Shown here: positions 1 through 12,244 of the stretch, in pieces | Position numbering within the stretch: position 1 is the stretch's first letter | How the letters are laid out: the number at the start of each line of letters is the position of its first letter | DNA from: a virus | Virus record (IMG/VR): IMGVR_UViG_3300048550_000392 | Coordinates: 1 to 20,048 of that record | Length of the DNA: 20,048 nucleotides | Strand: one strand, 5' to 3' | Notes under the pieces: generated by a model | The model's input: only the letters and a program-made list of their open reading frames with translations | What the model was told of the DNA's origin: nothing | The model's database searches: none | Translations under genes and position numbers: made by a program

Positions 1-1121
1 TTTGTTTTTTCATCTATTATTTGTGGTCTGGCATTTACACCTTCACCAACCATTTGTAGTCCGGGAACTACTCTAGATCCTGTTTGCACTTCTTTTAGTG
101 CATTTTTTACAGCATCACTTAATGCCATAGGTTTCCCTCTAGGCGTAGTCGGATCAGGCAACACAGGGGCATCTATCATTGGTTTTGGTGAAGCAGGTGA
201 CTTTACTATTGGACCGTCTGTATTTTTAGGATCAAATCCTCTATCAGTTATAGGTGCGGCTGTTGCATTTCTTGCTTTCTCTAAAACGTCTGAAACACTA
301 GTCATACCAAGTTTCTTGAATAGTGCGATAGCTCCTGCTACCCCACCCACAACCAACATTCTACCAAGACCTAATCCAACAAACTTCAACAACTTGGATG
401 CAATAATAGCTACTGATGCACCTAGTGCCATCTGCACATTTTCATTATCAAGAGACTCGCCTATGGTATCTGGACCTATACCGAATAAAGATTTTAGAGG
501 GTTTGGCTTATTAATGATATTATCACCAAGCCAACCAGATAGGACATTTGCAATGTCTCCCCCAAATGCTGCACCAATACCACCTGCTATTGCTGCTGGT
601 CCTTTTGCGCCAAGAAACTTTAGACCAAACCCCGCACTAATAGCAGTGGTAGCCTTCTTTTTAAATTCTTCTGGATCTTGTATTCCAAGCTCTTCTAACT
701 TAGCAGGATCAACATTATCAAATAATCTATCTACCGCTTCTTGAGCTAATGATGTTAAAGCTAATCCTGCAGCGCCAAACTTAAGACCTCTACCTGCTAG
801 TTTAGCTAATGATACACCACCTATGCCACTAAATAGCCCTGCTATTGCTCCTGTAGCCATTGCATATAGCTTGTCTCCAAATAAACCTTGACCAAACTCA
901 CCAGCCGTAGTTGTGGGTTGTCTACCACCTGTAGATACCTTAGTAGTCTTTCCTCTTCTAGCAGCCTCTCTAGCAGCCTCCTCTGCGTCTTTTCTTCCCC
1001 TAGACTCTTCTTTTCTGCGCTTAACTTCTTCAGCAAGCATATCACTCAAGGTCTTAGAAACATTGTCTAAGGTATCATTATTTTTCATAAGTGTTTCGTT
1101 TACTGCTGCTAAAGTTGGCAT
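1..1121 (-). CDS. Putative tail tape-measure protein, N-terminal part (runs off the left edge)
   Basis: An open frame starts at the ATG at 1121 and runs uninterrupted to the window edge (373 complete codons; the C-terminus is missing). Residues about 1-60 are charged and probably helical, rich in Lys, Arg, Glu and Ala. They are followed by three Gly/Ala/Leu-rich hydrophobic stretches at about residues 80-125, 160-190 and 225-270, then a Pro-rich linker. I recognise no family from the sequence. The function is inferred from position: it begins 5 nt after the small ORF that follows gp26, where tailed phages keep the tape measure behind its chaperones. Hydrophobic segments also suit a tape measure that enters the host inner membrane. 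The tape-measure counterpart in T4 would be gp29. A GGTAATAAAG stretch just upstream may serve as ribosome-binding site. It could instead be another hub or tail protein. Confidence 0.5.
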   Translation of the reverse strand, partial: MPTLAAVNETLMKNNDTLDNVSKTLSDMLAEEVKRRKEESRGRKDAEEAAREAARRGKTTKVSTGGRQPTTTAGEFGQGLFGDKLYAMATGAIAGLFSGIGGVSLAKLAGRGLKFGAAGLALTSLAQEAVDRLFDNVDPAKLEELGIQDPEEFKKKATTAISAGFGLKFLGAKGPAAIAGGIGAAFGGDIANVLSGWLGDNIINKPNPLKSLFGIGPDTIGESLDNENVQMALGASVAIIASKLLKFVGLGLGRMLVVGGVAGAIALFKKLGMTSVSDVLEKARNATAAPITDRGFDPKNTDGPIVKSPASPKPMIDAPVLPDPTTPRGKPMALSDAVKNALKEVQTGSRVVPGLQMVGEGVNARPQIIDEKT

Positions 1122-1126
1122 CTTTA

Positions 1127-1261
1127 TTACCTTTGCATTTGTTGTCTCTGCGCTTCTTCACGCTGTTGTTTTAAATCATCTATTAGCATACTCAAGTATA
1201 TTTCCCTCTCCCATGGCATCATATATTCTAAGTCTTCAAGAGAGTATTTGTGATGCTGCAT
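1127..1261 (-). CDS. Small gp51/T-like tail chaperone ORF, probably expressed as a -1 frameshift extension of gp26
   Basis: This 44-residue ORF is counted from the first in-frame ATG (1261) to TAA (1129-1127). It reads MQHHKYSLEDLEYMMPWERE, then IYLSMLIDDLK and a Gln/Glu/Arg-rich helical tail. As I remember them, short proteins with a Pro-Trp/Phe-Glu-Arg-Glu-Ile-Tyr core recur behind gp26 in marine T4-like phages. The ATG has no Shine-Dalgarno sequence. The frame is, however, open without a stop from the T8 run at the end of gp26, adding L I T L S H D S L V N H Y Q V N Y Q L before this Met. I therefore read it mainly as the 'T' part of a G/GT-type tape-measure chaperone. Independent translation cannot be excluded. 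It lies directly before the putative tape-measure gene, as expected. Confidence 0.7.
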   Translation of the reverse strand: MQHHKYSLEDLEYMMPWEREIYLSMLIDDLKQQREEAQRQQMQR

Positions 1262-1314
1262 CAACTGATAGTTAACTTGATAATGATTAACCAAAGAGTC
1301 GTGAGAGAGGGTTA

Positions 1315-1330
1315 TTAAAAAAAATCTCCT
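1315..1330 (-). promoter_or_regulatory. Putative programmed -1 ribosomal frameshift site (T8 slippery run at the gp26 stop)
   Basis: On the minus strand the last gp26 codons are GGA GAT TTT TTT TAA. This gives the heptamer T TTT TTT (1324-1318) followed at once by the stop codon. Slipping back one base reads TTA ATA ACC and enters the frame of the small downstream ORF, which stays open to the TAA at 1129-1127. The -1 frame has a stop just upstream (TGA, 1351-1349), so the extension is not a remnant of a longer gene. The product would be gp26 residues 1-233 plus 63 residues, 296 in all. An AGGAG at 1330-1326 lies just upstream. The +1 frame closes after nine codons and cannot reach the ORF. 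Transcriptional slippage on the T8 run would give nearly the same fusion. Confidence 0.7.
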
Positions 1331-2016
1331 ACACCTTTCAAGGTTATTTCATTATGTTCACCGCATTCTGTACAATCGAACTCCACATGTCTTTCTAAAT
1401 TTGGAATACTGTTAATAAATGCCATTATATTTTGTAGCTGATCTGCTGTTAGGTTATCAACGAAAGTTTTAACTTCTTCTTCAGTTTCCTCATCAAAATT
1501 TATAATTTCATCTTCAGTAATTAGTTTATCTAAACATGCTACCACAACCTTTATAAGATTTTCTGCAGCATTACTCTTATCATCTTCTTCTAGCATTAAA
1601 TCGTATCTAGGATATCCCATCTGTATAGTGTAGTTTTCGTTCATCTTAACTTTATTTTCAACATCACTGAGATTAATATCAATATCTTCTAGATTTATTT
1701 TCACTTCGTTTTCAGTATCACATTTCGAACAAATCAAATTAATATCTGCTGTTTCACCTACGCTTTTTGCTCTAAGTTGCATAAACATATACTCAACATC
1801 AAAGGTGGCTAATCTACTTACATCTATCTTATCAAGAACACAAACTTTTATAGTATCTGTTATTGCATTTAATATCTGCTTCTTATCCTGTGTCTCCAAC
1901 GCCATTAACAATACTTTTTGCTCCTTAACAAGAAACGGACGAAACATCACCGATTTTCCTGTTGAAGGTATTTTCATTTCATATTTTGGTACATCATTTA
2001 GTTTAGGTAGTGCCAT
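1315..2016 (-). CDS. 26: gp26-like baseplate hub / tail assembly protein
   Basis: The 233-residue protein begins MALPKLNDVPKYEMKIPSTG and matches the T4 gp26 family (T4_baseplate family in marine phages), including the early KEQKVLLMALE stretch. T4 gp26 is 208 residues and is needed for baseplate hub assembly. The protein has two CxxC pairs, C96-S-K-C99 and C215-T-E-C218-G, which could form one zinc knuckle. The middle is acidic. The start at 2016 is preceded by AAAGGA at suitable spacing, 12 nt after the upstream gene's stop. The C-terminus ends G-D-F-F over a T8 run that probably promotes a -1 shift into the next small ORF. The pair therefore behaves like the G and GT chaperones of other long-tailed phages, with the tape measure next in line. 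Confidence 0.85.
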   Translation of the reverse strand: MALPKLNDVPKYEMKIPSTGKSVMFRPFLVKEQKVLLMALETQDKKQILNAITDTIKVCVLDKIDVSRLATFDVEYMFMQLRAKSVGETADINLICSKCDTENEVKINLEDIDINLSDVENKVKMNENYTIQMGYPRYDLMLEEDDKSNAAENLIKVVVACLDKLITEDEIINFDEETEEEVKTFVDNLTADQLQNIMAFINSIPNLERHVEFDCTECGEHNEITLKGVGDFF

Positions 2017-2028
2017 TCATTTCATCCT

Positions 2029-2748
2029 TTAATTAAATACTCTTCCTATTGCTGTTCCTATTTGAGTTGTCAAAAACTTTTCTATATTACTTGTAGCTTC
2101 AACCTCATTTGGAATCCATTTTGTATACGACATTTGCACATTCAACTCCACGACACCATCAATATCATTGTTCAACTGAATGTCGTTCATGGTGGTAGGG
2201 AATGCGTCAAACAACGTACACGAATATATTACATCATCGCCTGTCACAAAGTCCAAGTCAAACTGACCTTGTGCAAGATCAATAGGACCAAACTTAGGTA
2301 ATCTATTTTGTATTTCTGATGGCAGTTTAGGAATGCCAAGAGGTGTGGAGTAGACAGGAAGACCAATACCTTTCTTCAACTGTTCAATCACAATCTGCTT
2401 TCCATACCCTTCTTTGCCTCTGAGATATCCTGCTGTCTGACCGTTCTGATCTACAGCAAGACTTTGCCAAGTATCAAAGTACTTTCGGATACCATAATCG
2501 TTTAGAACTTGAAAAGTCATAGAAATGTCTGTAACAGCATATCCATAAGGAACCTTCTGCATTTGCATACCAATCCTGCGTTCATTCGTCAGAACCTGCT
2601 TACCGGGCAATATAACGTCCTTACAGAGCAAGTTTACTTCTTCGGAGGTAGCACCAGGGATTGTTGGTAGCTTAACCCTGAATACATTTGGACGTGCTAT
2701 ACCATCTTTTCTAGACACTAAGCTTTTTAATTGGTCAACACTAGCCAT
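2029..2748 (-). CDS. gp19/gp54-like protein, probable baseplate tail-tube initiator
   Basis: The predicted product has 239 residues and begins MASVDQLKSLVSRKDG. I chose the ATG at 2748 because it forms a TAATG overlap with the stop of the preceding gene. A frame extended to 2802 would overlap that gene by 55 nt. The sequence FRVKLPTIPG, then LPGKQV, PYGYAVTDISMTFQ and a closing MSYTKW segment resemble the T4 gp19 tail-tube fold that gp54 and gp48 share. T4 gp54 (320 residues) sits on the baseplate and, with gp48, starts tube polymerisation. A true tail-tube paralogue is the main alternative, but the location among hub genes favours the initiator. It is followed by gp26 in the same leftward operon. 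Confidence 0.6.
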   Translation of the reverse strand: MASVDQLKSLVSRKDGIARPNVFRVKLPTIPGATSEEVNLLCKDVILPGKQVLTNERRIGMQMQKVPYGYAVTDISMTFQVLNDYGIRKYFDTWQSLAVDQNGQTAGYLRGKEGYGKQIVIEQLKKGIGLPVYSTPLGIPKLPSEIQNRLPKFGPIDLAQGQFDLDFVTGDDVIYSCTLFDAFPTTMNDIQLNNDIDGVVELNVQMSYTKWIPNEVEATSNIEKFLTTQIGTAIGRVFN

Positions 2749-3332
2749 TAGATCATTCCCCTTGAGTCTCTCCAAACTTTGGTTTGGGTGCTTTTCTGCC
2801 AATCAGCAGTAGGTAAGAACGTTGCAATTTCCCATTCGGGTGCAGGTATTCTAGCAAATCTACTTCTTACGTGTTTACTTAAATAATGCTTCACACAAGG
2901 CTTAAAATATTTCATCTTAGTCGAAGCTTTTAGCATATCATAGGTAATATCAAACTTAGTACTATCGTTAAACTTGTTGTTGGTTGTAACATCCATAAGT
3001 GCATCTAAGAATTTTGCTCTTAATGGAAGCGGTAAATAGTGAAGGTTTAGTCCAAGGAACCCACCTTTAGCAGGGCCAATAACAATAGCTAATGGAAAGC
3101 TATCGTAGTATGGCAACGTATCTTTGTGCTTGGGGTCATAAAAAAACATCTGCATAGAACCAACCAAAGTTCTATTTTTAAGATTTATTGATTCATCTTT
3201 CATCAATTCGTTACGGTTTATTTTTTTAATTCCAGAAAGCCTTTTACGGAACCAATCCCTAGACTCTTTTGATCTAGGGGTGATACCTGCTCTGAATGCT
3301 TCTATTTCTAGGTTTTTAAATAAGTTTGCCAT
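2748..3332 (-). CDS. Conserved T4-like virion protein, possibly the DNA-end protector gp2
   Basis: The protein has 194 residues. Its core contains FFYDPKHKDTLPYYDSFPL, then GGFLGLNLHYLPLPLRAKFLDAL, a KYFKPC segment and a closing KVWRDSRGMI. From memory, proteins of this type lie next to gp4 in marine T4-like phages and are usually labelled DNA-end protector (gp2). In T4, gene 2 is also next to gene 4. T4 gp2 is longer (274 residues) and I cannot align it here, so the name is tentative. The ATG at 3332 is the only possible start: an in-frame TAA lies within the late promoter 13 nt upstream. The stop overlaps the next gene as TAATG. No ribosome-binding site is visible, because the late promoter box lies only 5 nt upstream. 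Confidence 0.5.
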   Translation of the reverse strand: MANLFKNLEIEAFRAGITPRSKESRDWFRKRLSGIKKINRNELMKDESINLKNRTLVGSMQMFFYDPKHKDTLPYYDSFPLAIVIGPAKGGFLGLNLHYLPLPLRAKFLDALMDVTTNNKFNDSTKFDITYDMLKASTKMKYFKPCVKHYLSKHVRSRFARIPAPEWEIATFLPTADWQKSTQTKVWRDSRGMI

Positions 3333-3955: not shown

Positions 3956-4918
3956 ATGGCATACAAGAAAAACTTTAAGTTTCCTCTAGAAGATGATGGT
4001 TACAAGGGTAGGATAACTTTTGAGGCTATTCAAGAGAACTATAAGACTCTGCCTGAAACTGTGTTCAGTGGCTTAGTTGAAGCGGCTTCTGGTACAACAA
4101 ATAGAGAACGTGCAAGACAGCCAGAAACAGGATTCAAAGGACAGCAACAAGTGGTGAGGGGAAGTATACCTGCACGTGTTGGTAGTGGGCGTAAGGCTAC
4201 AATGTATTTACCTTCAACCTTACAGTTTCAGGATAACATTGAATACACTAATGTTGATCTTGGTATCATAGGTTCTGCGGCAGCAAACTCTTTGGGAGAT
4301 CCGAATGCTAGTGGCAGAGCAGTTCTTGGTGCGATCAAAAATAATCTTACACCAGACTTTGCCTCAATACAAGAGGCTTTCAATGTAGGACTTAGAAGTG
4401 AAGGCGCTCAAGTTGCTGCACTTCGTTTATCTAGTAAACTTAGTCCTGAAATTCAAGGTGCTATTGAAACCACAACAGGCATTGCGTTGAACCCTAATAG
4501 AAGATCTACTCTCAGAGGCATTGGTGTCAGGCAGTTTAGATTTACATTTAAAATGATTCCAACTTCTCAAGTAGAGGCAGAGGAAGTCAAACAGATAGTT
4601 CAGTTCTTTAGAGAAGAAATGTATCCAGATACTTCTGATGAGGGATTGAATGCGGCACTGAGATTTCCTAGTAAGTTCAACATAAAAATGTTCTATGACA
4701 ATAAAAGAGTTGCAACTAAGATATTACCATCTTTCTTGGCTAACGTTGATGTTGTGTACAATGCAACGGGTATGGCTTTTCACAAGGATGGTAACTTCCA
4801 AGAAACAGACATTTCATTATCGTTTGTAGAAGAAAGAGCATTGACTAAAAGAGATATTATAAGTGAGGCTACTGCAATAGATAATCCAAACTATGTACTA
4901 TCAGCAGGGGCAGGATAA
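3956..4918 (+). CDS. 48: gp48 baseplate tail-tube cap protein
   Basis: The protein has 320 residues (T4 gp48 has 364). T4 gp48 binds the upper face of the hub and, with gp54, nucleates tail-tube polymerisation. The match is clearest in the second half: a QFRFTFKMIPTSQ segment, then EEVKQIVQFFREEMYP, and a C-terminal GNFQETDISLSFVEERALTK that parallels the T4 gp48 end (GNFNGL, then a beta strand and MREIITL). The N-terminal half has a Thr/Gln/Arg-rich extended region. The gene has its own late promoter and an AGGTAGG ribosome-binding site. Its stop lies 1 nt before gp53. The likely partner, the gp54-like protein, is in the divergent leftward operon. Confidence 0.8.
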   Translation: MAYKKNFKFPLEDDGYKGRITFEAIQENYKTLPETVFSGLVEAASGTTNRERARQPETGFKGQQQVVRGSIPARVGSGRKATMYLPSTLQFQDNIEYTNVDLGIIGSAAANSLGDPNASGRAVLGAIKNNLTPDFASIQEAFNVGLRSEGAQVAALRLSSKLSPEIQGAIETTTGIALNPNRRSTLRGIGVRQFRFTFKMIPTSQVEAEEVKQIVQFFREEMYPDTSDEGLNAALRFPSKFNIKMFYDNKRVATKILPSFLANVDVVYNATGMAFHKDGNFQETDISLSFVEERALTKRDIISEATAIDNPNYVLSAGAG

Positions 4919-4919
4919 T

Positions 4920-5978
4920 ATGTCATTTTTTAGAAACTTTCCCACAGTAGCATATAACTTTGGTAATGAAACATTCGACACTACGTTTCACAACCTTACC
5001 ACTTATATAGATCTCATCGATCAAATAGCTGATGATGCGTCTTTCTATGAAAAGTATTATATTCAGGATGGTCAAAGACCTGATGTTCTTTCGTATGAGT
5101 TATATGGAACCTCTGACTTTTATTGGACATTTTTCTTATTGAACCCTAGTCTTCGTAAGCAGGGATGGCCTATGAGTAGCCTAGAGGTTTATGATGCTGC
5201 AAAGCTTTTTTATCCTAATAAAGTTATCATGACTACTGCAAGTATGCATGGCGAGTTTTATATTGGAGACATTATTGCAGATAGAGCAAATGTTGATGAA
5301 TTTGGAACAATCTTTAAGGCTAGAATATTAGAGAAGAATTATGATCTTGGTCAGTTAACGGTACAACCTATTGTTGATGTTAGGTCAATAACACTGACTA
5401 ATGGTGGTAGCGGATATACGTCTCCACCCACAGTAACCATATCTGGTGGAGGCGGTAATAGCGCAACAGCGCAAGCAGTTATGACCTTTCTTGATGGGAA
5501 TACTGTTGTGACTTCACAGACCATTCAATCTATAGCAGTTATTACTGGCGGTGAAAACTTTACTAGTGCTCCTACAGTGACTATATCTGAACCCGATATA
5601 GCAAACGGAACACAAGCAACCGCAACGGCGGTTTTATCTGGATTTTCTTTACCTAGACAAACGACTATATATTCTCAGCAAAACGAACCTAACGTATTAC
5701 TGTGGTCAGAAACTAAAGTTAGAAGTTTAATTACTAGAGATACTGTTGAACAATATAATGCTGCTGCATATTACACTGACACTAATCAAAATATCGTTGA
5801 TTTAAATATTAATGTTGGTGGTGGTGTTGATAACGAAGTCGGACAACTTAATAAAATACCTGTCACATATCTAGATAGACTTATAACCACAAATAATGAA
5901 TTACGAAACATTAATATATTTACGCCAAGTGTTGCAGCACAGGTAAACAGTGAATTTCAAAAACTATTGAGAAGTTAA
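4920..5978 (+). CDS. 53: gp53 baseplate wedge protein with inserted beta-repeat domain
   Basis: The product has 352 residues from the ATG at 4920. The frame is open from 4893, but that would overlap gp48. T4 gp53 has 196 residues and links neighbouring wedges into a ring around the hub. The N-terminal third matches closely: a YYIQDGQRPDVLSYELYG motif followed by FYWTFFLLN parallels the T4 GSPRPEELANAIYG...YWVLLMCN segment. The last 40 residues (TYLDRLITTNNELRNINI...) also match the T4 C-terminus. Between them, about residues 155-245 hold two copies of a Gly-Gly-x-x-Tyr/Phe-Thr-Ser-x-Pro-Thr-Val-Thr-Ile-Ser unit that T4 gp53 lacks. This accounts for much of the extra length. The stop is directly followed by the next ATG. 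Confidence 0.85.
   Translation: MSFFRNFPTVAYNFGNETFDTTFHNLTTYIDLIDQIADDASFYEKYYIQDGQRPDVLSYELYGTSDFYWTFFLLNPSLRKQGWPMSSLEVYDAAKLFYPNKVIMTTASMHGEFYIGDIIADRANVDEFGTIFKARILEKNYDLGQLTVQPIVDVRSITLTNGGSGYTSPPTVTISGGGGNSATAQAVMTFLDGNTVVTSQTIQSIAVITGGENFTSAPTVTISEPDIANGTQATATAVLSGFSLPRQTTIYSQQNEPNVLLWSETKVRSLITRDTVEQYNAAAYYTDTNQNIVDLNINVGGGVDNEVGQLNKIPVTYLDRLITTNNELRNINIFTPSVAAQVNSEFQKLLRS
5382..5655 (+). repeat. Two-copy beta-repeat insert inside gp53
   Basis: The first unit is NGGSGYTSPPTVTIS (residues 161-175) and the second is TGGENFTSAPTVTIS (209-223), 48 residues apart. Each is followed by a small-residue, Ala/Thr-rich stretch (SATAQA, QATATA). They are repeats of protein sequence; the DNA has diverged at third positions. 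A related unit occurs in gp8 of this window. Confidence 0.75.
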
Positions 5979-7334
5979 ATGGCAACTCCACTAGTATCAG
6001 CAGAACAGCTTAAGATTATTAGCATTCGATTGGAAGCAGATCGATACAACAAGCCCCTTTTTCTTTCAGGGGATGGTAAGTCTGGCATTGTTGTTGAGGT
6101 TAATATATATGAAGATTTGTCTAAGGGATACCTAACAGGTGGTATAATCATTCAAGATGATCTAGACATTTATAGAGTGGCTGACCTTGTAGGTACTGAA
6201 AGGATTGTTGTTGAGTTTGAGTCTCCTGATAGATCATCAGGCGTAATAACAAAGACTTTTATAATCGAAGAAATCACTGACAATATAAAGACTAATGATC
6301 AATCGTCCTTTTTATCAATGGCATTAATAGAAGATATAAAGTTTTATAATGATCTTATTAGGTTTAGTAAGGCGTATACAGGAACTGGTGAAGATATTAT
6401 ATCTGCTATTGCAAAGGACAAGCTTGGTAGAGAGGTTGTTATAGAAAGCAAAGTTTCTTCCTTTCAACAAGCATTTAGATACATCGTACCTTTTCAAGAT
6501 CCTTTGAGTGCCATTAATACTGTCTTAAGTAAAATGACTACAGAGAGCGGATTACCATTCTTTTTCTATTCCTCTGTTATCGACAATAAATTTTATCTCA
6601 CTGACTTAGAAACCATAATAAAAGAAGAATCTTTTAATAAAGATAGACCTTTCGTGTTTGATCAGTTCAATACCGTTCAGAGTGATATTGAATCTCAGGC
6701 TGTGAATATAACCAATTTAAATTTAGGATTGTTAGAAAACACTTTAGAGATAGCACTAGACGGTGGTATGGGGTCTCAATACAACTCTATTAATGCTACT
6801 ACTGGATCTCCATTTAAGTTTCATATAGACATGGGAGATTGGTTTGCTAGACTAACAGAAGCTGAACTATTTCCAAGAGAACAAAACTTTATTGCTTTTG
6901 ATAAAAAGTTTATTGCAGATCCATCACAGTTTGATAATAAGACGATTACTGATTATAATACTAAAATAGTAACTAGAGTTACTTCACAACCATATAATGA
7001 TACCAATAGCTTTAGTCAGGAAGCGTATCCTGCAGCAGAAATATATACTATGATAAGAAAAAGTGCTATTAGCCATTTGATGAGAAACATATATTCGATA
7101 AACATGCCAGGATTACTTTTCTCTGTTAATAACATAAAAACTTGTGTTGGACATCAAGTTCGTATGAATGTCAAAAGAAACAACACTGATATAAAAACAA
7201 ACACTACAATAGATGAAAAGAGATCTGGTGACTTTGTGATATTAGCAAAACGTCATTGCTTCGATGTTGTTGGAGAAAGACATACAGTCGCTTTAAATTT
7301 AAGTAAACTTGCAAGTCGGAGTATTCAAGAATGA
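5979..7334 (+). CDS. 27: gp27-like baseplate hub protein
   Basis: The protein has 451 residues (T4 gp27 has 391). T4 gp27 forms the trimeric hub torus that joins the tail tube to the gp5 spike. Direct similarity is low, but the order of parts agrees: an N-terminal beta domain with a rule-like YEDLSKGYLTGGIIIQDD, an FIIEEI segment, a helical DIISAIAKDKLG segment, an aromatic FFFYSSVIDNKFYLTD stretch comparable to T4 KFVFVWQDIMG, and a C-terminal RSGDFVILAKRHCFDVVGERH strand pair like the T4 FYVDEVIHELSNNNS ending. Position is the strongest support, because the next gene, overlapping by ATGA, encodes the gp5-type OB-fold spike base. No enzyme motif is visible. Confidence 0.7.
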   Translation: MATPLVSAEQLKIISIRLEADRYNKPLFLSGDGKSGIVVEVNIYEDLSKGYLTGGIIIQDDLDIYRVADLVGTERIVVEFESPDRSSGVITKTFIIEEITDNIKTNDQSSFLSMALIEDIKFYNDLIRFSKAYTGTGEDIISAIAKDKLGREVVIESKVSSFQQAFRYIVPFQDPLSAINTVLSKMTTESGLPFFFYSSVIDNKFYLTDLETIIKEESFNKDRPFVFDQFNTVQSDIESQAVNITNLNLGLLENTLEIALDGGMGSQYNSINATTGSPFKFHIDMGDWFARLTEAELFPREQNFIAFDKKFIADPSQFDNKTITDYNTKIVTRVTSQPYNDTNSFSQEAYPAAEIYTMIRKSAISHLMRNIYSINMPGLLFSVNNIKTCVGHQVRMNVKRNNTDIKTNTTIDEKRSGDFVILAKRHCFDVVGERHTVALNLSKLASRSIQE

Positions 7335-8260
7335 ACGAATATTATGGTGACAATATCCGATGGTTTGTTGGTAGGATTATCAGTGGTCAAGATCCTGATG
7401 AGGCTGGCAGATTTCAAGTTAGAATATATGGCATTCACTCTGAAGAAGTTGAAAACAAATACCTACCTTGGGCAGAAACAATGTTGCCGACTACAGAAGG
7501 CGGCGTGTCAGGCATAGGTAAAATACCACAACTAAAAAACAGTGCATTAGTATTTGGTTTCTTTTTAGATGGCATGACCTCTCAAAGTCCTATTATACTT
7601 GGATCAATGAGCCACATAGAACAACCATCTTCACCACAGGTAAGGGCGGCTGCAGAAGGTGGAAGAGTTGATCTTCTAGACAAAAAGAACATTGGTAAAG
7701 AAGGTGTTATTGTTACTGAACAGCAAAAGCAAATCTACAGGAACGGGAATGCAGAAGTTGCAGAGTTGAGGGTTCTTGTTATGGACTTTTTAGTTAGCAA
7801 TGGTCTACCGATAAAAGCTGCAGCAGGAGTGTGTGGAAACTTAGAGGTTGAAAGTAACTTTGATCCAAATGCTAAACTTCAAAACGAAATAGAGGATTCT
7901 AGAGGTATAGCTCAGTGGAACTCTAAATGGGGAAGGTGGCAAAGCGTAGAAGCATATGCTTCAGAACTAAATGAAGATCCATATGATTTTTTCTTACAGT
8001 TAAAGTTCCTTATATTTGATATGAAAACAAATCGCACCCATAGGTGTTGGGATCATTTAAGTAACCCTGCCAATATATCTAACTTTGATGGACCAAAAAA
8101 TGATTTGAACTCTACCTATCATTTCTTTCGTAGATATGAAAGGGCTGCAGAAGAAGGCTATCCAGGAAGACCTTTGGCAGCAAGAGAAGCATATGATGGT
8201 TACCAAGCTTCTTTAAGGGCGTCTGCAGAAAACAACTTAATATCGTCAGGAGCAGGTTAA
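7331..8260 (+). CDS. 5: gp5-like hub protein: OB-fold plus phage tail lysozyme domain
   Basis: The protein has 309 residues. Residues about 8-100 match the N-terminal OB-fold of T4 gp5: D-N-I-R-W-F-V-G at the start, DPDEAGRFQVRIYGIHS, LPWAE, then SGIGK and a GFFLDG motif. Residues about 145-300 look like the Phage_lysozyme2 (tail lysozyme) family and not the T4 lysozyme domain of gp5. They contain GVCGNLEVESNFDP with E174 as the likely catalytic Glu (E172 nearby), then SRGIAQWNSKWGRW, QLKFLIFDM and FFRRYERAAE. The T4 gp5 beta-helix is absent and is encoded two genes downstream. The domain probably opens the cell wall under the baseplate during injection. The gene overlaps the gp27-like gene by ATGA and the next by TAATG. 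Confidence 0.82.
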   Translation: MNEYYGDNIRWFVGRIISGQDPDEAGRFQVRIYGIHSEEVENKYLPWAETMLPTTEGGVSGIGKIPQLKNSALVFGFFLDGMTSQSPIILGSMSHIEQPSSPQVRAAAEGGRVDLLDKKNIGKEGVIVTEQQKQIYRNGNAEVAELRVLVMDFLVSNGLPIKAAAGVCGNLEVESNFDPNAKLQNEIEDSRGIAQWNSKWGRWQSVEAYASELNEDPYDFFLQLKFLIFDMKTNRTHRCWDHLSNPANISNFDGPKNDLNSTYHFFRRYERAAEEGYPGRPLAAREAYDGYQASLRASAENNLISSGAG

Positions 8261-9762
8261 TGTCATTACCAAAGGAGAAGTTGCAAGACGGTATTAATGC
8301 TGTAGAAAGATTATTAGATCTAGAATCCTCTAGTAAAAAAACTAATATATTAAATGAAGTTTTCGACACAGCATTTAGTTTTAAATATAAGCCAGACAAC
8401 TCTACATCAGGAGGGTTTAAAAGTGTCACTAACTCTGATAGAGATATAATATCGGGTGTTGATGGATCTGTTCCTAGTCAGATAAAAAAGAAAGTTGGTG
8501 TAGTACAGTTAGACTCTAGTGCCAAGAAAGACGAACTGGTAAAAAAGGTTGGATCTGATGCTACAGATTTATCCACCATTACAGGTGATAGTAGACTTTC
8601 GGCAAACGGATTTTTAGATGTTGCCATCTCTGCCCCATTCCCTGAAGCTTTGGCAGAGGTTGTTAAGTCAACTACTACAGCAAGCTCAGATGAAATAACA
8701 AATATTGTTGGTAGTAATGTTTTGACTGAACTTGCAAGAGATAATATACTTGACAACGTACTAGGAGATGTTTTAAATACAACTAAAGGATTATCTTCAT
8801 TGGCATCAAGCACAGTTCTAAGCCAAGTATCGTCTTTAGATAAATTAATAAAAAATTCTTTTTCTGGATTTTCTGGTTTAGTTGAAAATCTTGTTGAGAA
8901 TACTTTTCAGTCAACAGAAAATCTCTTAGGATCTGTGGCTAAAAAGGGAGATGTTTTATTAACCATTCCATCTAATGATATAAAGGATATTGTCGAGCTT
9001 AAACAAAAGGGTGATATAGATAAGGCTGTTTCTGTATTGAAAAAGTATTCAGATAAACCAGACGCAGAGTTACGAGAAGTCGTACTTAAAATAGATAACA
9101 GAGCGTCTAAAGCATTAGAACCAACTGCAGTTAGCGTAGACATACCCACAAAAAGAACTGATAACTATATTAATGTTTGGAGAGAAAGTACAACAGACAT
9201 TAGTACAAAAATATTCGATCCTATTGAAGACATATCAGAAGTTGAAACTGAAGTTGCAAATCTAAAAAGAGATGTTACACAAATGGTATGGGAAGCATGG
9301 AATGTATTTGCTTCTGATGGAAAGGGCACTATTGAAGGGTATCATCAAGTATTTGTTGACGATTACGATCAAGGATTAGAGCCTCATTTTTTCATAGATC
9401 AGGCAGGTATTGCATATAGAGGTAGACCCCTAGAGATAGAAGGAACTGGTGTATACTATTCAAGTAATGATCTTCCTAATCATGCAAAAAGAACTATATT
9501 GATTGCTCTTGAAGAACTTGAATGGAAAGTAAACTCATCACAAATAAAAACAGTAAAAAAACTTATGGAAGCTATTTATAATGTAAAACCGGGCATACAG
9601 ACACTAGGATTATATGATATTCTAAGTACAACAGAATCCCCATGGTGGGATGTGCAAAATGCTGCAAGGATTTGGTTTGGAAAAGAAAATATAAAGGGCT
9701 ATGATCCAAGAAAGTCAGAACCTTTAACGCAAAAACAAATAATAGATGGTTTAGGAAACTAG
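8260..9762 (+). CDS. Spike-associated structural protein with a degenerate amidase_2/PGRP-like domain
   Basis: The protein has 500 residues. Residues 1-300 are Ser/Thr/Leu/Val/Asp-rich, probably helical, and not recognised. Residues about 335-480 follow the order of an N-acetylmuramoyl-L-alanine amidase (amidase_2/PGRP) domain: IEGYHQVFVDDYDQGLEPHF, then FIDQAGIAYRGRPLEIEG (Y386, R387, G388, R389, P390), a helix, and GLYDILSTTESPWWD (450-464). The last motif lines up with the family's GHRDxSSTxCPG, but the zinc-ligand His is L451 and the Cys is S460. The second His position (GAHA) reads G-T-G-V, and no His lies in the first-strand region (338-350). The domain therefore looks catalytically dead, perhaps a wall-binding or structural module. 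It sits between two spike genes, with a TAATG overlap upstream and a 1-nt gap downstream. Confidence 0.7.
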   Translation: MSLPKEKLQDGINAVERLLDLESSSKKTNILNEVFDTAFSFKYKPDNSTSGGFKSVTNSDRDIISGVDGSVPSQIKKKVGVVQLDSSAKKDELVKKVGSDATDLSTITGDSRLSANGFLDVAISAPFPEALAEVVKSTTTASSDEITNIVGSNVLTELARDNILDNVLGDVLNTTKGLSSLASSTVLSQVSSLDKLIKNSFSGFSGLVENLVENTFQSTENLLGSVAKKGDVLLTIPSNDIKDIVELKQKGDIDKAVSVLKKYSDKPDAELREVVLKIDNRASKALEPTAVSVDIPTKRTDNYINVWRESTTDISTKIFDPIEDISEVETEVANLKRDVTQMVWEAWNVFASDGKGTIEGYHQVFVDDYDQGLEPHFFIDQAGIAYRGRPLEIEGTGVYYSSNDLPNHAKRTILIALEELEWKVNSSQIKTVKKLMEAIYNVKPGIQTLGLYDILSTTESPWWDVQNAARIWFGKENIKGYDPRKSEPLTQKQIIDGLGN

Positions 9763-9763
9763 T

Positions 9764-12244
9764 ATGGCTATTGTATACCCAAATAATCTATCATCACTTA
9801 CGCAAGAAGCTATTGATCGTAGAGCGTCTGATAAGGTTTCAAATCTTCCTGAAGATCCTACAGGTAAGTATCCTGAGACAGGATATTTCTTTTCAAGTAA
9901 TATTGCAAAAGAAGCAAGAGGCGTTGCTAGAAACGATCTAGAGTTTTTTGCACAATACGATGGGATGGAAATATCCTCAGGCGATAAGATCTCATCAGAC
10001 TATGGCAAAAACCAAGTATCTAAATCTGAGAAGGGTCACGTGTGGGAAGTTGATGATACTGATGGAAATGAACGCATCCTTATCAAGCACTTTGAGGGTA
10101 GCGGTATAGAACTATCTCCTGATGGTAGTATCATCATTAGTTCTAAGAAGCGTAAGGTTGAGATAATCGGCGGTACTAATGATGTTATTGTTGAAGGCGA
10201 TGCACAACTAGTATATAAAGGCAACCTAAACATAAAGGTTGTAGGAGAGTTTAATGTTGATTGTTTAGATTACAATGTTACAGTGAATGGTAATAAAGTA
10301 GAGACTGTAAAGGGATCAGAAGAAAAGAATGTTGGCAACGGATTACAGACTTCTGTTACAGGTCCAATAACAACCTACTCAACTGGTTTAGTTACTGATG
10401 TGTTCTTGGGTGGACATCAACACAATGTCAAAGGTAATCTTGATTATAACGTTAATGGTAATGTTGGTTTATTCTCTAGTGGTGAAATGAACATCACCTC
10501 ACAGGACTATATTAATATTGCTTCAGATAACGTGACTGCTTCAGCACAAAATATGACTGTACAAGGTGGTAGTGGAGTCATAGGTGGCACTGCTGTTGAC
10601 TTTGTGGGTAACGGCGCTGTGTTTGATAAAGGTATCACTGCCCCGACATTCCATGGAGACCTAGATGGAACTGCGACTACTTCAACAGTAACTCAGTCTC
10701 AAAACTATGGGGAAGCAGTTACAGGAACTGCAGGTAGTATTACTAATACTGCGACTCCTACTATCACTACGCCAACTTCGACAAATGTTCTTACATACTT
10801 GCTTAAGGCAGCAGGTGGTATTCGTAAGGTGATCATTGACAAGGGCGACTACTTAAAGAACTTTATCGACAAGTCAAAAGATTATGGCGGTATTTCTACA
10901 GGAGATATGACTACTGCCAAGGCTAGATCAAAGCTACGAGATGCTGCTAACTTAGGCAACACTCAGTTTATGGGCCAACTACTTAAAGAAAATCTTATTT
11001 GTTCTGAATATAATAATCCAACCCCTAAACGGATTGGTAGAACAGTAAAGCAAGAGTCTACTCCTATCTTAGGTAATAAGCCTGTAAGTATTTACTCGCC
11101 TAGACTTGCTGCAACATATATACCCAAAAACAATGTAGTAAGTATTGTTCCTGAAGATAAGTACAATCCTCTGAAGCAAGATGATATCACTATAAAAACT
11201 AAGTTGTCGGACAATATTACCATAGCAAAGTTTTTGGGATCAGAAGATGCAACAAACCTTAAGTTCATAAAATCATTGTCTGTGAAAAGAGAGCTTGCTA
11301 GAAACCTATACTTACACAGTCTTATATTGAAAAAGGTGCAAACTAATACTGATAGGTTTAAAGGTATAAATCTAGTTGTATCAGAAGGCATTTATAAACC
11401 TGGTCCATCTGAAGTAATAACACCAAAAAGTATAAACGATTTAAAAGCTAAAGGCAAGGCTGTTGTATACAAAGTGGTGGATCAAAGCGGTGCAGAAAAC
11501 AACTTAGATTTGTTTGATATTGCAGAGTATGTAAAGGATGTGAGTTTCTTTGATGAAATGATTTTGTCATACGATACTTTAGAGTGCAAGAACGATCAAC
11601 CAGTTTTAAAGGCAAGACTTATTTTAATAATGCCTGATATTGATGACAACTGGACAGGAAGATTTAACAGAAAAGTTTCTACTGAATATAATAGACAGTT
11701 GTTATCTAAAGGTGAGCTAATAGAATGTTTGTTAGAAGATAATGAAACATTAGAAGCACGTGCGATAGAACAGTCTGCCATTCCACCAAGTGATGGTGTT
11801 GTAACTCACTCTAGAGGACCAGACCGAATAAATTGGCCTAATCAAAATATTGTTGATGCGATTGCGGCTGCTGTTCGTGAACTTGGTCAGGAATATACTG
11901 CACAGATAACTTCAAATGGTGGTAGGGCTAAAAGAGATACTGGAACTCAAAACCATCCAAAAGGAGAAGCAGCTGATCATTATTTAATGCTAAATGGCGT
12001 CAGAATAATGCCGTCAGAAAACGCATTCCTCTACCAACGGTATATTCGTATTTTAGTTAAGAACGCAAAGGCACGTGGAGTTCGTCCCGGTATTGGTGGT
12101 TATTCTTCGGAAAGGACCGTTGAGGGAGTGACCGAGAGGACTGGGTTTATTCATTATGATGAGAGTACATGGAGACAAGGCGGTGCAGGATCTGCAGGAA
12201 CTTGGAACGCAGGTTTTGATGTTTCCTTCGCAAAATCATTATAA
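9764..12244 (+). CDS. Central spike: gp5C-type beta-helix with C-terminal M15-type peptidase
   Basis: The protein has 826 residues. Residues 91-105 read GHVWEVDDTDGNERI, as at the start of the T4 gp5 C-terminal part. They are followed to about residue 300 by short VxGxxx-type repeats (IEVVEGD-, YKGNLNIKVVGEFNV-, VNGNKVETVKG-like) that should form the triple-stranded beta-helix needle. Residues about 300-530 are not recognised. Residues about 540-620 resemble a worn M15 domain (SEGIYKPG, LKAKGKAVVY, FFDEMILSYD) without metal ligands. Residues about 680-826 look like an active M15/VanY-type zinc carboxypeptidase: SNGGRAKRDTG, NHPKGEAAD with H731 and D738, and FIHYDE with H797 and D799. It probably pierces the outer membrane and cuts peptidoglycan peptides. 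The stop codon lies within the next late promoter. Confidence 0.75.
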   Translation: MAIVYPNNLSSLTQEAIDRRASDKVSNLPEDPTGKYPETGYFFSSNIAKEARGVARNDLEFFAQYDGMEISSGDKISSDYGKNQVSKSEKGHVWEVDDTDGNERILIKHFEGSGIELSPDGSIIISSKKRKVEIIGGTNDVIVEGDAQLVYKGNLNIKVVGEFNVDCLDYNVTVNGNKVETVKGSEEKNVGNGLQTSVTGPITTYSTGLVTDVFLGGHQHNVKGNLDYNVNGNVGLFSSGEMNITSQDYINIASDNVTASAQNMTVQGGSGVIGGTAVDFVGNGAVFDKGITAPTFHGDLDGTATTSTVTQSQNYGEAVTGTAGSITNTATPTITTPTSTNVLTYLLKAAGGIRKVIIDKGDYLKNFIDKSKDYGGISTGDMTTAKARSKLRDAANLGNTQFMGQLLKENLICSEYNNPTPKRIGRTVKQESTPILGNKPVSIYSPRLAATYIPKNNVVSIVPEDKYNPLKQDDITIKTKLSDNITIAKFLGSEDATNLKFIKSLSVKRELARNLYLHSLILKKVQTNTDRFKGINLVVSEGIYKPGPSEVITPKSINDLKAKGKAVVYKVVDQSGAENNLDLFDIAEYVKDVSFFDEMILSYDTLECKNDQPVLKARLILIMPDIDDNWTGRFNRKVSTEYNRQLLSKGELIECLLEDNETLEARAIEQSAIPPSDGVVTHSRGPDRINWPNQNIVDAIAAAVRELGQEYTAQITSNGGRAKRDTGTQNHPKGEAADHYLMLNGVRIMPSENAFLYQRYIRILVKNAKARGVRPGIGGYSSERTVEGVTERTGFIHYDESTWRQGGAGSAGTWNAGFDVSFAKSL

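Follow-up and report, generated by a model that had tools for sequence, protein, structure and literature searches.

In excerpts of the Atkins review (PMC5009743), the lambda G/GT system is described as widely conserved in long-tailed phages except T4. For T4, the relevant excerpt of a review of the phage tail (PMC3004832) presents gp26 and gp51 as hub assembly chaperones, gp51 being essential and of unknown function, and states that genetic evidence favours gp26 being a component of the hub; such a role as a hub part argues against a purely transient chaperone that leaves the virion. Chaperone genes of T4-like phages were identified by Vladimirov, Gautam and Davidson (Virology 566:9-15, 2022), as cited in excerpts of the papers on PRFect (PMC10885494) and on phage Adele (PMC12846349), the latter of which cites this study for poly-T slip signals in T4-like TAC-N genes. 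The frameshift mechanism is already published for the T4-like group, and the locus described here is a well-supported new example, to which we add conservation statistics and two candidate stimulators. In a literature search covering titles and the starts of abstracts, no paper on a frameshift in cyanophage or pelagiphage gp26 was found, which is not a claim that the subject is unpublished.

The window, that is, the whole stretch of 20,048 nucleotides of viral DNA that was analysed, carries on its minus strand a gene of the gp26 family that ends with the codons GAT (1326-1324), TTT (1323-1321), TTT (1320-1318) and TAA (1317-1315). The T8 run and the slippery heptamer directly before the stop, first noticed in a sequence-only reading of this DNA, were confirmed (Table 1). 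In the -1 frame, the heptamer is followed by TTA ATA ACC CTC TCT CAC, and the frame stays open to a stop at 1129-1127, adding 63 residues after Phe-Phe, PWEREIY among them, just as that reading had described. Judging from the sequence and its relatives, gp26 and the small downstream frame very probably constitute the tail-assembly chaperone pair of a T4-like marine phage, produced via -1 frameshifting.

Table 1. Features of the gp26 locus, in window coordinates
Feature	Position	Strand	Basis
Tail tube gene immediately preceding gp26; start codon provisional	2029..2802	minus	match of 2032-2757 to phrog_45 (tail tube), E 9.8e-34
gp26-like protein of 233 aa, proposed as the short (G-like, TAC-N) tail-assembly chaperone	1315..2016	minus	PF12322, phrog_150, AlphaFold2 model
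AAAGG, beginning 14 nt before the heptamer; candidate upstream stimulator	1334..1338	minus	anti-SD duplex; inferred
Slippery heptamer T TTT TTT, coding Phe-Phe	1318..1324	minus	read from sequence; T8 run = 1317-1324
Zero-frame stop TAA, adjoining the heptamer	1315..1317	minus	read from sequence
-1 frame extension of 63 aa beyond Phe-Phe (proposed TAC-C, T-like; homologue of the gp51 C-terminus)	1127..1318	minus	phrog_634, conserved core, pN/pS
Weak hairpin at the place of the relatives' candidate 3' stimulator	1269..1293	minus	signal across relatives
Probable tape-measure protein, cut by the window end	3..1121	minus	position and AAAGG upstream

Along this strand, the genes follow in the order head closure, DNA end protector, tail tube, gp26, extension and probable tape measure, an order shared with phage C48C1 (Kyanoviridae), in which the last gene is annotated as a peptidase. 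The gene after the extension starts at 1121 and is preceded by AAAGG. Its position, as noted in the sequence-only reading, is that of the tape measure; the window's own cut ORF (3..1121) yielded no tape-measure match in Pfam or phrog searches. Among the downstream genes of eight relatives tested, three matched tape-measure phrogs (L046, L055, L069) and five matched none. The probable tape-measure genes downstream in relatives (for example, L082:3371-4789 and L097:3424-5712) vary much in sequence and length, the complete candidates printed ranging from 473 to 763 aa and some of the cut ones being longer, and the chaperone that precedes them is conserved. Elsewhere in the window, on the plus strand, a gp5-like hub/lysozyme seems to be split (7331-8260 and 9764-12244), with one gene corresponding to phrog_430 positions 14-110 and another to positions 331-614; the 500-aa gene between these parts (8260-9762) has no phrog match up to E 0.001. 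Also on the plus strand, a gp53-like wedge gene (4893-5978) matches tail-fibre and virion structural families over residues ~139-250.

The gp26 protein matches PF12322 (T4_baseplate; E 3.9e-59, 200 bits, cut-off 24.5) and phrog_150 (E 3.5e-60). The extension, in which an H, an N and a PWE.E core are conserved, matches phrog_634, 'baseplate hub assembly catalyst' (E 4.1e-25). A second match, to the C-terminal part of phrog_150 (E 1.3e-9), suggests that this family includes fused proteins; a Pfam search with the extension gave no match. Many of the listed records annotate the extension as a separate gene, either 'baseplate hub assembly catalyst' or gp51. Contrary to what had been supposed from the sequence alone, the ORF was therefore not simply overlooked.

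The AlphaFold2 model of gp26 (mean pLDDT 88.9) suggests a chaperone fold for the N-terminal domain. Residues 1-87 match the HK97 tail-assembly chaperone 2ob9 (Z 7.2, rmsd 3.3 over 85 residues, 11% identity). The top structure matches of the first 88-96 residues are the uncharacterised 3fgx (Z 7.5), 2ob9 (Z 7.2) and YqbN, 3klu (Z 7.0), which we take to be a tail-assembly chaperone, the next row being at Z 4.0; all of these lie below Z 8, and a Z of ~7 is within the range that the tool treats as possibly a mere common arrangement. Among the top structure matches listed, 2ob9 is the sole named tail-assembly chaperone, and its Foldseek match to gp26 is weak (E 0.95-1.1, prob 0.66-0.69). The top matches in the Foldseek viral library are mostly gp26-type proteins, and a profile search of PDB sequences with gp26 returned nothing relevant.

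The slip site and the -1 frame are conserved in relatives. In a scan anchored on gp26, which was alignment-based and made no use of the slip site, every one of the best 80 among 592 loci carries T TTT TTN, in frame and close to the stop codon of gp26, and has its extension in the -1 frame, with PYERE in place of PWERE in one of them (L122); at none of the 80 does the small ORF lie in the same or the +1 frame, arrangements at odds with the frameshift proposed from the sequence alone. In a scan anchored on the extension, the best 80 of 595 loci all have the heptamer, preceded by a zero frame that lacks stops for up to 150 codons; the zero-frame stop follows 0 or 1 codon later at 73 of these loci and 8 or 9 codons later at the other 7. 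Both scans lean to closer relatives, and 18 contigs, by a count of the listings, are common to the two sets. A first scan returned 23 loci, several of them near-copies of each other or of the window; the gp26 end is included in 21, and all 21 read GATTTTTTTTA with the stop abutting. Among 21 named junctions from outside the Tevenvirinae, hand-chosen from the listed matches, 19 carry the heptamer, including those of Kyanoviridae, Emdodecavirus, Pootjesviridae, Schizotequatrovirus, other Straboviridae, Menderavirus and a Pseudoalteromonas phage. The two others, those of Vibrio phages K397 and D532 (L036 and L210), are alike at the junction: gp26 ends CTT TTC AAG TAA, the -1 extension is open, and an ATG overlaps the stop. 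A switch to reinitiation is possible in these two phages. By the counts from the two anchored scans and from the named junctions, the T-run and the open -1 frame, whose retention the sequence-only reading had put forward as a test, are conserved among relatives.

Altogether, 116 of the 117 gathered junctions carry the heptamer T TTT TTN at the 3' end of gp26. The 117 comprise the 80 gp26-anchored ones, L001 and L003-L021 from the first scan, 16 named loci and the window. Excluded were L002 (a duplicate), L022 and L023 (gp26 incomplete), L024 (the window itself), L035, L039 and L211 (split-gene type), L123-L201 (counted apart), and L210 and L212-L215 (fetched later). This figure and that of the gp26-anchored scan are the unselected ones; the 100 representatives referred to below were drawn from the 116 heptamer-bearing junctions so as to be <85% identical in gp26, and in these the heptamer is present by construction. 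A chance T-run next to a chance open frame, or a degenerate leftover, would be helped by the composition of the AT-rich window, where a T8 run is not rare (3.68 expected on both strands; at least one in 95 of 100 shuffles), the run in gp26 being the sole one present. Conservation at every one of the best loci in both anchored scans stands against this explanation, as does the occurrence of a 63-codon open frame in only 20 of 5000 dinucleotide shuffles of the stretch, and we give it practically no credence.

In 97 of the 100 representatives, the stop lies 0 or 1 codon past the heptamer, which is TTTTTTT in 52, TTTTTTC in 41, TTTTTTA in 6 and TTTTTTG in 1. Elsewhere in the same gp26 genes, Phe is encoded as TTT in 688 of 968 cases; other FF pairs are slippery in 55 of 544, a count that takes in long open stretches of any of the six frames, whether or not they are genes. 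The T-run is six long in 48 representatives, seven long in 10 and eight long in 42. These lengths bear on an alternative in which RNA polymerase slips on the homopolymeric T8 run, one extra U in the transcripts leading to the same D-F-F-L-I-T-L junction as a ribosomal slip, as could happen in the 42 representatives with a T8 run. A run of six is too short for efficient polymerase slippage, and the six-long runs end in C, A or G; given that the run is merely that long in 48 of the 100 representatives, ribosomal slipping is favoured. The heptamer, moreover, keeps the form suited to a two-tRNA slip, and the upstream anti-SD pairing, which exceeds that of synonymous recodings (see below), suits a ribosomal event. 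Thus, polymerase slippage appears unlikely. According to the excerpt of the Atkins review (PMC5009743), U_UUU_UUU is much less shift-prone than A_AAA_AAG in E. coli, which counts against the frameshift reading.

The -1 frame of the extension is conserved at the protein level. For extension codons 3-21, pN/pS is 0.34 in the -1 frame versus 1.12 and 1.48 in the other frames, and for codons 22-40, it is 0.22 versus 1.15 and 3.66; these values come from 2172 sequence pairs that are not independent, and shared ancestry is uncorrected in them as well as in the codon counts. The extension might instead be a separate small protein, the real gp51, its translation beginning internally or with ribosomes that reinitiate once past the gp26 stop, as would fit its annotation as a gene of its own in many listed records and the ATG that overlaps the stop in K397 and D532. 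Among the 100 representatives, 35 have an ATG, GTG or TTG no later than extension codon nine, and where such an early start codon is present, the pN/pS test by itself would be compatible with reinitiation. The first Met of the extension lies at index 19 or later in 61 representatives and earlier in 38, the latter count going against a clean frameshift picture. Against a separate gene, the first Met scatters from index 3 to index 34, with none in one representative; codons 3-21 are conserved as protein; and the heptamer is kept at all but one of the gathered junctions. A clear ribosome-binding site at the start of the extension, which would also speak for a separate gene, is rarely seen, an SD-like 4-mer preceding the first extension ATG in only 3 of 99. 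In the window, the extension contains five Met codons, and the claim of the sequence-only reading that there is only one ATG was wrong; the first is extension codon 22 (1261-1259), and no Shine-Dalgarno was seen before it, in line with what that reading had stated. The combination of pN/pS, position of the first Met and rare SD-like sequence favours a reading of the extension that begins at the slip site. A start of its own for the small ORF is disfavoured by the Met scatter, the rarity of SD-like sequence and the conservation of codons 3-21, and we consider it quite improbable, less so where there is an early start codon.

T4 gp26 and T4 gp51 both belong to PF12322, and the C-terminus of T4 gp51 matches the extension, which in gp51 is in frame (hhalign prob 90.8, E 1.2e-6, 38 columns). 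The Phe-Phe of T4 gp26 is encoded by TTC TTT, which is not slippery, and likewise in gp26 of Erwinia phage Cronus. Among 17 named records searched whole, two PF12322 genes are found in T4 and in the T4-like Klebsiella phage KSKp, and one in the remaining 15, of which 14 have the heptamer and one, K397, lacks it; C48C1, the best-scoring named relative listed, has one PF12322 gene. The window's own record is a 20-kb fragment. The proposal that gp26 and the small ORF are a G/GT system, made in the sequence-only reading, is supported by T4 gp26/gp51 and by the conserved -1 frame, together with the modest HK97 fold match and the tape-measure matches downstream in three of eight relatives.

Two candidate stimulators flank the heptamer. 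Upstream, SD-like 4-mers cluster 12-17 nt from it (98 overlapping motif hits in 100 representatives, with a motif list that does not include AAGG). Much of this signal follows conserved Glu-Gly or Lys-Gly, and the presence of an SD-like 4-mer shows no excess over synonymous recodings (79 vs 78.1 of 100). The strength of anti-SD pairing, in contrast, beats the mean synonymous recoding in 76 of 100 representatives (mean -6.03 vs -4.71 kcal/mol), Glu being GAG at this site in 31 of 52 cases versus 576 of 2292 elsewhere, and Gly being GGG in 21 of 98 versus 38 of 620. At this place in the window, the best anti-SD duplex, with AAGG included, is -5.5 kcal/mol. Downstream, folding of 60-nt segments that begin 6 nt past the heptamer is more stable than that of shuffled sequence (mean z -1.26, against -0.23 to 0.09 for the controls), and extension codons 8-20 are more stably folded than their synonymous recodings, with a mean z of -1.29 and 52 of 100 under -1; the recoding controls gave z -0.16, -0.15 and -0.52, with 21, 22 and 31 under -1, a mild excess in one of the three. 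The excess pairing begins ~21 nt past the heptamer, which is further than usual for bacterial stimulators, and the window's own hairpin shows no excess over synonymous recoding (z +0.22). Fixed-register covariation was sought in the 25 best stems across 95 gapless representatives (28-55% pairing), with none convincing, so that for the downstream hairpin we claim only an excess of stability. In all stimulator tests, shared ancestry was handled by the 85% identity cut alone. We tentatively propose, as a model that may well turn out otherwise, a composite signal of three parts: an SD-like element that lies 12-17 nt upstream and is reinforced through codon choice, a U-rich heptamer abutting the stop, and a hairpin ~21 nt downstream that drifts in register. 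Jointly these would set the short-to-long ratio, and the T4 lineage would have replaced the signal by gene duplication into 26 and 51.

Under the preferred reading, -1 frameshifting by the ribosome, most ribosomes would stop at the TAA of gp26 and release the 233-aa short form, whereas a minority would slip back one base, with two tRNA-Phe on U UUU UUU, read UUA in place of UAA and produce a 296-aa long form with the extension. Were the pair to work as G/GT does in lambda, the abundant short form would coat the product of the next gene, the tape-measure protein, and the scarcer long form would use its extension to bring in subunits of the tail tube. The occurrence of the frameshift, its ribosomal nature, its rate and the binding partners, that is, tape measure and tube, are what we infer from the conserved sequence, frame and protein. 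At the marine T4-like loci examined, the 'hub protein' and the separate small gp51 are most likely one gene read in two ways, and the same is probably the case in many among the 704 phage records that match gp26, only a few of which were looked at. If this is true, the 'baseplate hub assembly catalyst' annotations in these phages need correcting, T4 gp26/gp51 become tied to a testable chaperone role, and the two arrangements can be compared as naturally occurring ways of fixing a protein ratio, by frameshifting in one case and by gene duplication in the other.

Compared with the HK97 chaperone 2ob9, gp26 aligns over residues 1-87, and its residues 88-233 fall outside the alignment. The slip sequence of lambda G/GT differs from the heptamer of the window. 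Compared with the lambda proteins, gp26 is also longer, with a further part after the chaperone-like N-terminal domain, and belongs to the T4-like, contractile-tailed group; common to both, on the proposed reading of our locus and going by the excerpted account of lambda (PMC5009743), would be a short form and a rare -1 long form acting on the tape measure. The Vandenendeviridae and Andersonviridae, as represented by phage Adele in the excerpted parts of its description (PMC12846349), resemble our locus in the open -1 frame at the TAC-N end, the poly-T motif, the annotation of the extension as a separate gene and the tape-measure gene, probable in the window, next to it, and differ in the motif, GTTTTT, and in being other phage families. 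T4 gp26/gp51 share the PF12322 family with the window, and gp51 carries the homologue of the extension in frame; unlike in the window, they are two separate genes, and T4 gp26 lacks the slip heptamer. There is also a likeness in kind to the T4-like TAC-N/TAC-NC pairs, which, in the same excerpts (PMC12846349), share with this locus the gp26/gp51 family and poly-T slip signals in the TAC-N genes; the locus described here differs in coming from an uncultivated lineage and in having U UUU UUU directly abutting the stop.
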